A DNA stretch of 64,000 bases, taken from an uncultured Clostridia bacterium. Lineage in GTDB: Bacteria > Bacillota > Clostridia > Oscillospirales > Ruminococcaceae. Location of the stretch: positions 1 to 64,000 of the forward strand of contig CANRNN010000009.1 of NCBI GenBank assembly GCA_947632025.1, in the 5' to 3' direction. Position numbers and translations under genes: made by a program. Below are positions 32,824 to 38,007 of this stretch, one piece after another (positions within the stretch are counted from its first letter, which is position 1; every line of letters starts with the position of its first letter). The notes under the pieces are model-generated. The model searched no databases and was not told where the DNA came from. It saw only the letters and a program-made list of their open reading frames with translations.

Positions 32824-33756
32824 TTATTCCGCCCGTAAAAGCTCCGCGTAGACGAAACCTCCGCCGTTTTCTTTGTATACTACCCGAACGTTTTTCATTG
32901 TGACCTTGACTTCGGCGTAACTGCTGTCCTTAAACAGATCGGACAGATCTATCGGAACTTCGGAAATATTACCAAAGCTTATTTTCTTTCCGTCATAAAC
33001 AGCCCCGAATTTCTCGTTAGGGTCTGCCCATTCCTCGGTAAAACTGTACAGCATAGGCGGAACAGGAACGTATTCACTTTTTACGGAATCAGCGAAAAAT
33101 GTCAGATCGCCTTTTGAGTCAATATAGTCAGTCGTTTCCGGATAGCAGTACAGAACGCCCTCAAGTGTTATTTCGCCGTCGAAAATTATCTCGCTGCTGA
33201 GTATTTGACCCGTTAAGTCTACCCAATAATTCGCACTCGTGACGGTAAGCCCGTTGTCAAGCTTGTCGCCTGCTTTTACCTTGAAATATTCGGGATCTTC
33301 GACCGTAGATTCAATATCGGTATTGAATTCAAGGGTATCCCAATTGACAAGTCCGGAATTTTTTAAGGTGTTGTCGTAAAGCGGCTTTGCAAACCGTATA
33401 TACGAAAAATCAAATCCGACAGCATAAGTTGTACTGCCGTCATTGTTCGCCTGTGCATAAACAGCTTCGGACTTGTCGAGCGTGCCGCCGTCGGGAGCGG
33501 GAATGTTTTCGAGAGAAAATGTATCGATAAGCGCCTGAGTTTCGGGGCTTACAGCAGAAGCGGAGCTGTTTTGCGAACTTTCGGAGTTTTCGCTGTTCTC
33601 AGGGGAATTATTTTCGCTCGAATTATTCGCTGAACTTTCGATTGAATTTGTCGTGGAATTATCGCTCGAATTTTGTGAATTGCTGCACGCAGTAAGCGAC
33701 AGCGTGAGCGTGAGAGAAAGGATTGCTGATGTTTTCCTGAAATTCATTTTTTTCAC
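32824..33756 (-). CDS. Lipoprotein of unknown function, paralogue A
   Basis: Lipobox SLTACS; Ser/Asn-rich linker; shares ..YDNTLKNSGLVNWDTLEF.., AGDKLDNGLTV, GEITLEGVLYC layout with next gene. Confidence 0.75.
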   Translation of the reverse strand: MKKMNFRKTSAILSLTLTLSLTACSNSQNSSDNSTTNSIESSANNSSENNSPENSENSESSQNSSASAVSPETQALIDTFSLENIPAPDGGTLDKSEAVYAQANNDGSTTYAVGFDFSYIRFAKPLYDNTLKNSGLVNWDTLEFNTDIESTVEDPEYFKVKAGDKLDNGLTVTSANYWVDLTGQILSSEIIFDGEITLEGVLYCYPETTDYIDSKGDLTFFADSVKSEYVPVPPMLYSFTEEWADPNEKFGAVYDGKKISFGNISEVPIDLSDLFKDSSYAEVKVTMKNVRVVYKENGGGFVYAELLRAE

Positions 33757-33768
33757 CTCATTAAATTT

Positions 33769-34695
33769 TTAATTATTGATTTTTTCAATGGAAACGATCT
33801 CCCCAAAACAACCGAATGCTCCTCCGCCGGAGTTGGGTCCTTGGGTAACTATTCTTATGTTTTTGATTGTTACAGTTACCTCGGCGGCTTTTCCTTTCTC
33901 GATTATATCGTCACGACCTAATTCGGAAATATTTCCCAAACGATACGCACTTGTGCCGACGACCGCCAGACCTGCGTCGGGATATACCCGTTCCGGTACA
34001 TCATATTCTTTTTCGCCGTCAGAGATAAAAGAGATCCAATCCGGAAAATGAGAAAAATTTGTCGTGTCGGGGAAAAAATAAAGATCTCCCTCATAATCTA
34101 TATAATCATCTTCCGGAACACAATACAAAGCCCCGTTGAGTGTCAGCTCGCCATCAAAATAAACCCAACCGGTATAATCGACCCAGTCGTCTATAAAATA
34201 TTCCAGTATATGCCGCGCTTCTTTCACTTTAAGTCCGTTGTCAAGAACATCACCGGCTTTCACTCTTTCCCTCACAGGAGTATAATTATAATCGTGCGAA
34301 GCGAATTCATTAGTTTCCCAGTTTATAAGGTCGGGATTTTTAAAAGTATCATCATAAATTGGTGGTGCGTATTCAATAATGGAATAGTTGAACATAACAT
34401 ATTCATCGCCAGCACCTGAATGTTCAATGACCGCATCCGATAATGGTAAAGGTTCGCCGTCCGCACCAATAAGATCCTCCTCCCAATGGCTGACCTGCTG
34501 AACAGGACTTGACGAATTTGAAGGCGTAGTATCTGTTGAAGATGAAGTGTCAGGTGTTGTCTTTATGCTCGATGATGCAGACGAACTTGAATTACCGGAG
34601 GTGCTTGTAGTATTCGTCAAAGGTTTTTCAGTGCTGCACGCAGTAAGCGACATAATCACCGCTAATGAAATAAGTACAGATGTAATTTTTTTCAT
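33769..34695 (-). CDS. Lipoprotein of unknown function, paralogue B
   Basis: Lipobox SLTACS; YDDTFKNPDLINWETNEF, AGDVLDNGLKV, GELTLNGALYC. Confidence 0.75.
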   Translation of the reverse strand: MKKITSVLISLAVIMSLTACSTEKPLTNTTSTSGNSSSSASSSIKTTPDTSSSTDTTPSNSSSPVQQVSHWEEDLIGADGEPLPLSDAVIEHSGAGDEYVMFNYSIIEYAPPIYDDTFKNPDLINWETNEFASHDYNYTPVRERVKAGDVLDNGLKVKEARHILEYFIDDWVDYTGWVYFDGELTLNGALYCVPEDDYIDYEGDLYFFPDTTNFSHFPDWISFISDGEKEYDVPERVYPDAGLAVVGTSAYRLGNISELGRDDIIEKGKAAEVTVTIKNIRIVTQGPNSGGGAFGCFGEIVSIEKINN

Positions 34696-34767: not shown

Positions 34768-34796
34768 ATTGTAACATAAAGTTTTTTCCTTGTCAA
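34768..34796 (-). promoter_or_regulatory. Promoter of lipoprotein operon
   Basis: Minus strand TTGACA-17 bp-TACAAT. Confidence 0.75.
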
Positions 34797-34802
34797 TAAA
34801 AG

Positions 34803-34882
34803 GTAACAAAACTGTAATTTTTTCCGGTAAATTGTAACCTTTTTGTAATCTTTTGAAACTTTTTTGTAACCATTTTGTAACC
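34803..34882. repeat. Array of GTAAC-type direct repeats at ~11-bp period, candidate response-regulator binding array
   Basis: GTAAC/GTAAT/GAAAC cores at 34803, 34814, 34834, 34845, 34855, 34866, 34877 (steps mostly 10-11 bp). Confidence 0.75.
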
Positions 34883-34977
34883 TTTGCGACAGGAGCATAA
34901 AAAAGTCATAAAATCTTCATAATTTCTTCAGATCCGCTTTACTATCGCGTTTTTTGAAAAAAATCCGCGCGCGGCGC

Positions 34978-35006
34978 TTGACAAATACTGAAAAAAGGTG
35001 TATCAT
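34978..35006 (+). promoter_or_regulatory. Promoter of the two-component system operon
   Basis: TTGACA-17 bp-TATCAT. Confidence 0.65.
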
Positions 35007-35035: not shown

Positions 35036-35722
35036 ATGAACGAGAAGATACTTATTGTGGACGATGAACATGAGATCGCCGACCTCGTCGAACTTTGCCT
35101 GTCAAATGAGGGCTTCCTTACACGAAAATTCTACGACGGCGCATCTGCTCTCGAATTCCTGAACGGCGAAAGCGTCGACCTCGCCGTGGTGGACGTGATG
35201 ATGCCCGATATCGACGGGTTCTCTCTGGTCAGACTTCTGCGCGAGCGATACGTCTTTCCAGTTATAATGCTCACCGCCAGAGTGGAGGAATCCGACAAGA
35301 TAACGGGACTTATGCTCGGCGCGGACGATTATATGACTAAGCCTTTCAGCCCGCCGGAGCTTGTCGCGAGAGTCCGTACACAGCTTCGCAGATTCTACCG
35401 TTATAATGTAAACTCCAAACAGAATACCGAAATAGATATTCGCGGACTTTCCATAAACTCCGAAAACAGAAAATGCACACTTGACGGGAAAGCCGTAAAC
35501 CTCACGCCGCTCGAATTCAATATATTGCTCTACCTGTGCGAAAGACAAGGAAGCGTCGTCACAAGCGAGGAGCTTTTTGAAGCCGTGTGGGGAGAGAAAT
35601 ATCTCGACAGCTCCAATACCGTTATGTCGCATATTGCACGTCTGCGTGATAAGCTCGGCGAACAGCCGCGCCGCCCGAAGTACGTCAAGACCGTCTGGGG
35701 GGTGGGCTATACCGTTGAGTAA
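35036..35722 (+). CDS. OmpR/VanR-like response regulator
   Basis: REC (VDDEHEIADLVEL, VVDVMMPDIDGF, MLTAR, KPF) plus winged helix C-terminus. Confidence 0.92.
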   Translation: MNEKILIVDDEHEIADLVELCLSNEGFLTRKFYDGASALEFLNGESVDLAVVDVMMPDIDGFSLVRLLRERYVFPVIMLTARVEESDKITGLMLGADDYMTKPFSPPELVARVRTQLRRFYRYNVNSKQNTEIDIRGLSINSENRKCTLDGKAVNLTPLEFNILLYLCERQGSVVTSEELFEAVWGEKYLDSSNTVMSHIARLRDKLGEQPRRPKYVKTVWGVGYTVE

Positions 35723-36818
35723 AGGTAAAAATAAACGCTATCGCAAACTTTCCCGCGAAATATTGATACGGTATTTTCTGATACTTATCGTGGGAACGTT
35801 GTTTTTCGCTTTTTTCGTGACTACGGTCAAGTGGTTATGCGGGAGTTTGTCATTTCAAAGGGCAGGGAGAATTTACCGCGTACTGTTGTTTGTTGACGAA
35901 AATCTAGATATTTTCGAAGCGGCGGTAATAATCATTATGTGGGGGATCATCACACGGCTGTGTTTTATAAAGCCGTTGAAATTTCTGGACGAACTTACCG
36001 ACGCAGCTGTGAAAATGTCGTCCGGGTTTTCGGAGAACAGTGAGATAAAGCTCTCGCCCGAACTTCACGAAACAGAGCTTGAATTGAATTCCGCAAGGGA
36101 ACGTTCGGCTCGGAACGCTCAACGTGCGGCACAAGCCGAACAGCGCAAGAATGACCTTGTCGTCTATCTGGCTCACGACCTGAAAACTCCGCTTACGAGC
36201 ATTATCGGCTATCTTACGCTGCTGCGTGACGAACCTAATATTTCGCCCGAAAACCGCGCACGCTTCACGGATATAGCGCTTAATAAGGCAGATCGGCTGG
36301 AGCAGCTTGTAAACGAGTTTTTCGATATCACGAGATTCAACCTCACAACACTTACGCTTGAACGGGAGTCGGTCAACCTGTCGTTTATGCTGGAGCAGAC
36401 TGTAAGCGAGTTTCTGCCGATTTTCGCCGAAAAGGAGCTTGCAGCGCGGACAGATATTCAAAGCGGGATAATGCTTTTATGCGATCCGGACAAGCTGGCA
36501 AGGGTGTTTGACAATCTTCTGCGCAATTCTTTCAATTACAGCTACGACAAAAGCGAGGTCTTTATTTCTTTGAAGTCTGACGGGAGCTTTGCGGAAATTC
36601 TCGTGAGAAATCACGGAAAGAATATCCCCAAGGAAAAGCTCGGCAGGATCTTCGAGCAGTTTTTCAGAGTGGATTCCGCCAGAAGCTCCGGAACAGGCGG
36701 CGCCGGTCTTGGACTTGCTATAGCAAAGGAAATAGTCGACCTTCACGGCGGTGAGATCTCAGCCGGAAGCGAAAACGAAATAATAGAATTTAAGGTAAAA
36801 TTGCCGCTTGATATGTAA
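35715..36818 (+). CDS. VanS-like sensor histidine kinase (TTG start)
   Basis: YLAHDLKTPLTSIIGYL, two TM segments, LGRIFEQFFRVD, GGAGLGLAIAKEIV. Confidence 0.9.
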   Translation: MSKGKNKRYRKLSREILIRYFLILIVGTLFFAFFVTTVKWLCGSLSFQRAGRIYRVLLFVDENLDIFEAAVIIIMWGIITRLCFIKPLKFLDELTDAAVKMSSGFSENSEIKLSPELHETELELNSARERSARNAQRAAQAEQRKNDLVVYLAHDLKTPLTSIIGYLTLLRDEPNISPENRARFTDIALNKADRLEQLVNEFFDITRFNLTTLTLERESVNLSFMLEQTVSEFLPIFAEKELAARTDIQSGIMLLCDPDKLARVFDNLLRNSFNYSYDKSEVFISLKSDGSFAEILVRNHGKNIPKEKLGRIFEQFFRVDSARSSGTGGAGLGLAIAKEIVDLHGGEISAGSENEIIEFKVKLPLDM

Positions 36819-36849: not shown

Positions 36850-38007
36850 ATGAGAAAATCAGCCTTGTTTTTAGCAGCGGTCATAACGGCATCGGCTCTG
36901 ACGGGCTGTACGGAAACTTCGGAACATATAAGCGTTCCGAAGCTCTCGCATATGTCCTCAGAGAGTGAGAGTGAAGCTCCCGTATCGTCTGACACTTCGC
37001 ATTCAACGGATACGTCGGACTCGTCGGGCGCAGCGGCTTCTTCGGATACGAAAAGCTCGTCCACTTCGGAGAGTACGTCAAGCACTTTGAACGCGTCAAG
37101 CTCGTCAAGCGTGAAAAGCAGCTCGTCAAAGACCGCGAGCTCAACGAAAAAGCTTCCCGAAAAAAGCTCGTCGAAGGTATACACATCGTTCGAGCCTGAG
37201 TTGAAAGACGGCGTCCCCGAAGGCGAAACGCTGACCGTTCCGAGCGGCTCGATGCTTGAAATAGACGGGGATTTTCGGGTCGAGGGAACGCTCGACTGCT
37301 CCGAGGGCGGTCTGGTCGTAGTAAAGGACGGAGGACGGCTCCAACTCGACGGGAACGCCGTACTGAACGGCTGTATGCGCATAGACGAGGGCGGCGAAGT
37401 CTGCGGGGACGGAGTACTTAAGCTTGTGAACAATTTCGACGACATCGACTGCAAGGGCGGTTTTACCGCGAAGATCGACCCGCCCGCTCCCATTGAGAAA
37501 AACGGGGTAACATATGTAGGCGGAATACTTCTCGTCAACAAACAGTATGCACTTCCGAAAAAATACGGCAGCGGTCTTGATCCCGAACTTCAGGCAGCCG
37601 TCGAGGAAATGCGTAAGGCTTCGGGCTTTACTATGAGAATATCATCCGGATTCCGAAGCTACACTGAGCAGGAATGGTGGTACAATTACTGGTGTTCGGT
37701 GGACGGAGAGGAGATAGCAAGTACATATTCGGCGCTTCCCGGACACAGTGAGCATCAAACGGGTCTTGCCGCCGACATCACCAGAAGCGAACTTGATTAC
37801 GCAGATACTCCCGAAGGGAAATGGCTCGCGGCACACAGTTGGGAATACGGCTTGATAATCCGATATCCGCAGGACAAGGTGGACAAGACAGGCTATATTT
37901 ATGAACCGTGGCATGTGCGCTATCTCGGCAAAAGCACCGCGAAGCTCGTTCATGACAGCGGACTTTGTCTGGAGGAATTTCTGGGTGTTTGTGAAGAATC
38001 TGAATAA
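36850..38007 (+). CDS. Lipoprotein M15-family D-alanyl-D-alanine carboxypeptidase (VanY-like)
   Basis: Lipobox SALTGC; SSGFRSYTEQEWWYNYW, PGHSEHQTGLAADI, EPWHVRYLG. Confidence 0.9.
   Translation: MRKSALFLAAVITASALTGCTETSEHISVPKLSHMSSESESEAPVSSDTSHSTDTSDSSGAAASSDTKSSSTSESTSSTLNASSSSSVKSSSSKTASSTKKLPEKSSSKVYTSFEPELKDGVPEGETLTVPSGSMLEIDGDFRVEGTLDCSEGGLVVVKDGGRLQLDGNAVLNGCMRIDEGGEVCGDGVLKLVNNFDDIDCKGGFTAKIDPPAPIEKNGVTYVGGILLVNKQYALPKKYGSGLDPELQAAVEEMRKASGFTMRISSGFRSYTEQEWWYNYWCSVDGEEIASTYSALPGHSEHQTGLAADITRSELDYADTPEGKWLAAHSWEYGLIIRYPQDKVDKTGYIYEPWHVRYLGKSTAKLVHDSGLCLEEFLGVCEESE

Follow-up and report, generated by a model that had tools for sequence, protein, structure and literature searches.

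A helically phased half-site array upstream of two lipoprotein genes recurs at envelope gene promoters across a genus of Ruminococcaceae

The lipoprotein genes and the divergent VanR-like operon

The window, i.e., the whole stretch of 64,000 nucleotides that was analyzed (contig CANRNN010000009.1 of assembly GCA_947632025.1, an uncultured Clostridia bacterium of the Ruminococcaceae), contains two lipoprotein genes and a divergent regulatory operon with a repeat array between them. The first gene after the array, on the minus strand (33769 to 34695), codes for a lipoprotein of 308 aa with a Ser-rich linker and the lipobox LTAC, for which no family match was obtained in Pfam or NCBIfam. A second lipoprotein gene (32824 to 33756, minus strand) begins 12 bp downstream, and the two are presumably co-transcribed. 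Their products are 39% identical (E value of 3e-40), which bears out the paralogy proposed in the original prediction, made from the DNA sequence of the window. The minus-strand promoter that it placed next to the array, TTGACA-17-TACAAT, was also confirmed by reading the sequence at 34796 to 34768.

On the plus strand, domain matches identified an OmpR/PhoB-class response regulator of 228 aa (35036 to 35722), a VanS-like histidine kinase (35718 to 36818), and a VanY-domain D-Ala-D-Ala carboxypeptidase with a lipoprotein-type N terminus (36853 to 38007), in agreement with the operon content originally described. The regulator, with Response_reg and Trans_reg_C domains, is VanR-like, scoring 345 bits to vanR_ACDEGLN against a cutoff of 350. 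Its promoter (TTGACA-17-TATCAT, 34978 to 35006, plus strand) is located ca. 96 bp from the array edge, and upstream of it there is a second, different 11-bp repeat (TCTGAAGAAAT/TATGAAGATTT/TATGAC; 34905 to 34936, minus strand). This repeat is the best VanR-box match upstream of vanR, with two mismatches, a match that is not significant alone (P of about 0.19), and it is a candidate VanR autoregulatory site. VanR-like genes in three other species (L082, L084, and L085 in genomes G023, G022, and G009) have near-identical upstream DNA, which suggests horizontal transfer.

Structure of the array

The array (34801 to 34884, read on the minus strand) comprises some seven half-sites of the GGTTACAAAA type, which read TGTAAC on the plus strand and follow one another at steps of 10 to 11 bp. 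The plus-strand cores are GTAAC at 34803, GTAAT at 34814, GTAAC at 34834, GTAAT at 34845, GAAAC at 34855, and GTAAC at 34866 and 34877, giving core-to-core steps of 11, 20, 11, 10, 11, and 11 bp, with one double step. The cores thus lie where they had been reported, with the spacing described. The longest chain comprises five cores, a length reached by none of 3,000 first-order Markov sequences of the same region, and exact GTAAC was observed five times compared to a maximum of three in the simulations. An independent repeat finder recovered four 22-nt copies spaced 11, 10, and 11 bp apart. The array is a genuine feature of this DNA.

In a correction to the original prediction, the element at 34803 (AAAGGTAACAAAA) is oriented opposite to the others, forming an inverted pair. 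Viewed on the promoter strand, direct repeats of GGTTACAAAA are followed by an inverted unit at the −35 box, TTACA-GTTT-TGTTACC (34802 to 34818, minus strand), which extends from −21 to about −5 relative to the −35 box. Most of the array promoters that precede lipoprotein or Cys-rich genes keep this unit in the form TTACA-N4-TGTNA (see below). On the plus strand, the array holds two perfect WalR boxes, TGTAACCTTTTTGTAAT at 34833 to 34849 and TGTAACCATTTTGTAAC at 34865 to 34881, the only two in the 64-kb window.

Recurrence and helical phase across the genus

Regulon membership was defined by pattern searches with reversed-motif controls. In the window genome (G000), all 30 matches to GTTACA-N4/5-RTTACA fell within 15 promoter arrays, compared to three matches for the reversed control, while the strict motif, TTTGTAAY-N2..4-TTTTGTAAY, had 18 matches against none. 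The window array is one of about 15 in the genome and no peculiarity of the VanR locus: the 14 others have no vanR nearby. In 14 of these 15 arrays, the TTACA cores are placed, relative to the first base of the −35 box, at about −20, −31, −41, −52, and −62.

Of 43 congeneric genomes, 42 contained the strict motif, and the reversed control gave a single match. We read 90 further loci of the genus and analyzed a total of 104 array promoters, 90 of which had a clear sigma-70-type promoter. Across these 90, the cores hold a phase of 10.4 to 10.5 bp with the −35 box (positions −20, −31, −41, −52, −62, and so on; R of 0.73). With each promoter represented by its proximal core alone, the Rayleigh P value was about 6e-22, to be read as indicative since the sequences are related and not independent. 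Outside the genus, 33 of 196 family-level genomes had the strict motif, mostly once, with ca. 10 matches for the reversed control; the dense array form is therefore mainly a genus trait. A single repeat array has in this way led to a defined envelope regulon, with about 15 promoters in each genome and common across the genus, and no regulon map for this genus was known in the literature searched. The promoters also provide a natural series, from two to eight half-sites, suited to measuring output against site number.

Genes behind the arrays

The recurrent first genes downstream of the array promoters cluster as envelope genes across the genus. They include a G5-DUF348-3D protein (two cores, at −61 and −50), a LysM-G5 protein (cores near −22 and −11), a 50-aa Cys/Gly-rich membrane protein (at most six cores per array), a solute-binding-like lipoprotein, an S11 D-Ala-D-Ala carboxypeptidase in one clade, and, above all in the window genome, a multicopy family of Ser-rich lipoproteins. 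The G5-DUF348-3D, LysM-G5, and S11 carboxypeptidase genes are peptidoglycan-active targets of the kind expected for a WalR regulon. The 50-aa protein (MCGFNxGNNSCCWIILLILL...GCGCGC), without a match in Pfam, is in many genomes the gene product that follows the largest arrays (for example, at L001, L049, L190, and L197).

Since the promoter architecture of the two window lipoproteins is common to envelope genes, we infer that they belong to the same envelope regulon. The original prediction had presented them as outputs of a cell-envelope sensing system, with regulator dimers on the array acting as activators. The genus-wide presence of the same array, in phase with the −35 box, before envelope genes supports both this role and the class of mechanism. 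It also offers functions by association for uncharacterized lipoproteins and for the small Cys/Gly-rich membrane peptide.

The neighboring VanR and other candidate regulators

Of the proposal that dimers of the neighboring regulator occupy the array, the part that stands is the presence of tandem sites of ca. 11 bp, of the OmpR/PhoB class, upstream of the −35 box; the choice of VanR as the regulator was probably mistaken. The VanR-like protein is the divergent neighbor and belongs to the right class. Direct repeats upstream of the −35 box are likewise VanR targets, and the published VanR site, (T/C)CGTANGAAA(T/A)T, shares a GTA core with TGTAAC (PMC4405338). Some promoters of vanR orthologues have a TTACA ca. 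20 bp from the −35 box as well. However, only 35 of the 43 genomes had an orthologue at an identity of 58% or higher, and in the other eight the arrays are still in phase (37 of 40 cores), although these eight are 73 to 97% complete and some absences may be assembly gaps. All 15 arrays of the window genome differ from the VanR box by two to four mismatches, compared to zero or one in five vanR-orthologue promoters of the genus, where the position of the box relative to the −35 box is about −35. Of the vanR-orthologue upstream regions that were read, the window's alone has an array, and in another genome (G012) a lipoprotein homologue ca. 2.2 kb from vanR has none. That this regulator activates the lipoproteins from the array as VanRS outputs is thus quite improbable, and VanR is unlikely to be the sole regulator of the arrays. 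Given the likeness of the cores YCGTAnG and TTGTAAC, it may be an additional binder at the window locus.

A somewhat less improbable, but still unlikely, reading is that a different conserved member of the OmpR family drives the arrays, with P0002 (G000:C1:61023) as the foremost candidate, or that several regulators sharing the motif do so. P0002 was found in every genome checked, with 82 to 86% identity, so that its distribution does not tell against it, and its DNA-binding domain resembles those of the PhoP and VicR types. Upstream of P0002 itself, however, the 11-bp repeat is of another kind (TCACATTTCTATCATA type), in place of TTACA arrays. PhoB was rejected as the genus-wide regulator because it is present in 16 of the 43 genomes; in the pstS promoter of the window genome, the sequence is TTTACA-N5-TTTACA.

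A Bce-type regulator (R30, at L030) could bind the proximal inverted unit TTACA-N4-TGTAA, the upstream repeats being extra half-sites. The unit does correspond to the published Bce-box consensus, TNACA-N4-TGTAA (PMC9020739), a Bce box (TTACAAAATTGTAA) lies between the R30 gene and a divergent ABC transporter gene, and TTACA-N4-TGTNA is found in 39 of the 90 array promoters. Against this, R30 occurs in 16 of the 43 genomes, a count that covers R30 alone among the Bce-like regulators. Genomes without R30 hold 52 of the array promoters, 18 of them with the inverted unit, and the hydrolase-type promoters have direct repeats only. R30 was rejected as the general regulator on the grounds of its distribution, and we regard this reading as the least probable of all. 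Hardly more credible is a regulator-free explanation, in which the repeats would be a phased A/T-tract UP element or an intrinsic bend that strengthens the promoter. The TTTT tracts do recur once per helical turn, at a local GC content of 24 to 30%, but the GGTTACA core, which goes beyond A-tracts, is kept over 42 genomes, and at some promoters there are no cores other than the two at −61 and −50. The phyletic distributions exclude VanR, PhoB, and R30, each as sole genus-wide regulator, subject to the completeness of the draft genomes.

A conserved WalR-like regulator as the best candidate

The question of the regulator therefore shifts from the neighboring VanR to a conserved WalR-like system. 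Among the nine Trans_reg_C regulators in the genome, P0001 (G000:C5:131988-132683) is WalR-like and present in all 43 genomes. It belongs to a lipoprotein-regulator-kinase operon, a layout like that of walA-walR-walK in Clostridioides difficile (PMC9210968), and the kinase has HAMP, HisKA, and HATPase domains without PAS. A perfect WalR box, TGTWAH-N5-TGTWAH, was found in all 15 array promoters of the window genome, and both this consensus and its binding as a direct repeat are documented (PMC4168254). In Staphylococcus aureus, a WalR site upstream of the −35 box means activation whatever its orientation (PMC10746227); both array orientations occur here, the opposite ones before lipoproteins in G004 and G018 (L234 and L246).

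Distribution, motif, and target type make P0001 the best candidate, and we consider it somewhat more likely than not that this regulator activates a genus-wide envelope regulon that recruited the window lipoproteins. Naming the regulator by sequence alone was tried and abandoned, as NCBIfam and PDB comparisons, of full-length proteins and of DNA-binding domains, failed to separate the WalR-like, P0002, and VanR-like proteins. P0001 scores 198 bits to YycF at full length against a cutoff of 340, its DNA-binding domain is nearer to RegX3 and OmpR than to WalR, and its sequence by itself does not single it out as WalR. No array was seen upstream of the WalR-like operon in the window genome.

Under the favored reading, the array would be a platform on which a conserved response regulator of the OmpR/PhoB family, most likely P0001, docks at multiple sites. 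Dimers would bind head to tail on the half-sites of 10 to 11 bp (TGTAAC, or GGTTACA on the promoter strand), all on the side of the helix that the −35 box defines. The final unit would reach the −35 region, and the bound regulator would activate transcription. The cooperative binding of dimers, the activation, and the identity of the regulator are all inferred. The window lipoproteins would then be lineage-specific members of a genus-wide envelope regulon, together with peptidoglycan-active and other surface proteins. A bolder proposal, which we put forward only tentatively and hold to be doubtful, is a distinct array code: two to eight WalR-type half-sites, phase-locked to the −35 box and often capped by the inverted unit. 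Through this code the WalR-like regulator would grade the expression of an envelope regulon specific to the genus, whose outputs would be expanding chiefly among lipoprotein families and Cys-rich membrane peptides.

The arrays resemble the sites of several known systems. As in WalR/YycF/VicR of the Bacillota, TGTAAC/TGTAAT half-sites form direct repeats with a 5-bp spacer upstream of the −35 box, and cell-wall enzymes, including a 3D-domain protein, are among the targets. However, the arrays have four to eight half-sites against one or two for WalR, the seventh base is C or A/T instead of the A of Streptococcus mutans VicR, the main targets are lipoproteins and the Cys-rich peptide, and the WalR-like regulator is here a candidate. 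Bacillus subtilis PhoP and Escherichia coli PhoB are also OmpR-family activators that use tandem 11-bp half-sites just upstream of or overlapping the −35 box, and the TT(A/T/C)ACA repeats of B. subtilis PhoP are very similar to the array half-sites; the difference lies in the restricted occurrence of PhoB in the genus. The VanR boxes of the van operon are 12-bp direct repeats upstream of the −35 box, bound by an OmpR-class regulator (PMC4405338), but the arrays depart from their consensus (YCGTANGAAAWT). Many array promoters have a proximal inverted unit identical to the Bce box (PMC9020739), while the Bce regulator is missing in most array-bearing genomes.

Copies and variants of the lipoprotein promoter

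Members of the multicopy lipoprotein family (MKRFTAIISTLAVVASLTGCN...) are found on contigs C16, C22, C26, C29, and C31 of the window genome (L008, L010, L012, L014, and L017). Their array promoters are near-identical and several copies lie at contig ends, which suggests a recent amplification that broke the assembly. A 133-bp orphan copy of the window promoter and array, 96% identical (G000:C29:13064-13200; L016, L128:3555-3687), is not followed by a lipoprotein gene and faces a GH25-lysozyme-like gene. Other lipoprotein homologues (L228, L229, L231, and L238 in G042, G041, G035, and G031) have promoters without direct repeats that keep the inverted unit TTTACA-N4-TGTAA ca. 20 bp before a weak −35 box. 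As for the two homologues with the array in opposite orientation (on contigs G004:C70 and G018:C382), one has some seven or eight TGTAACC units directly adjoining TTGACT.
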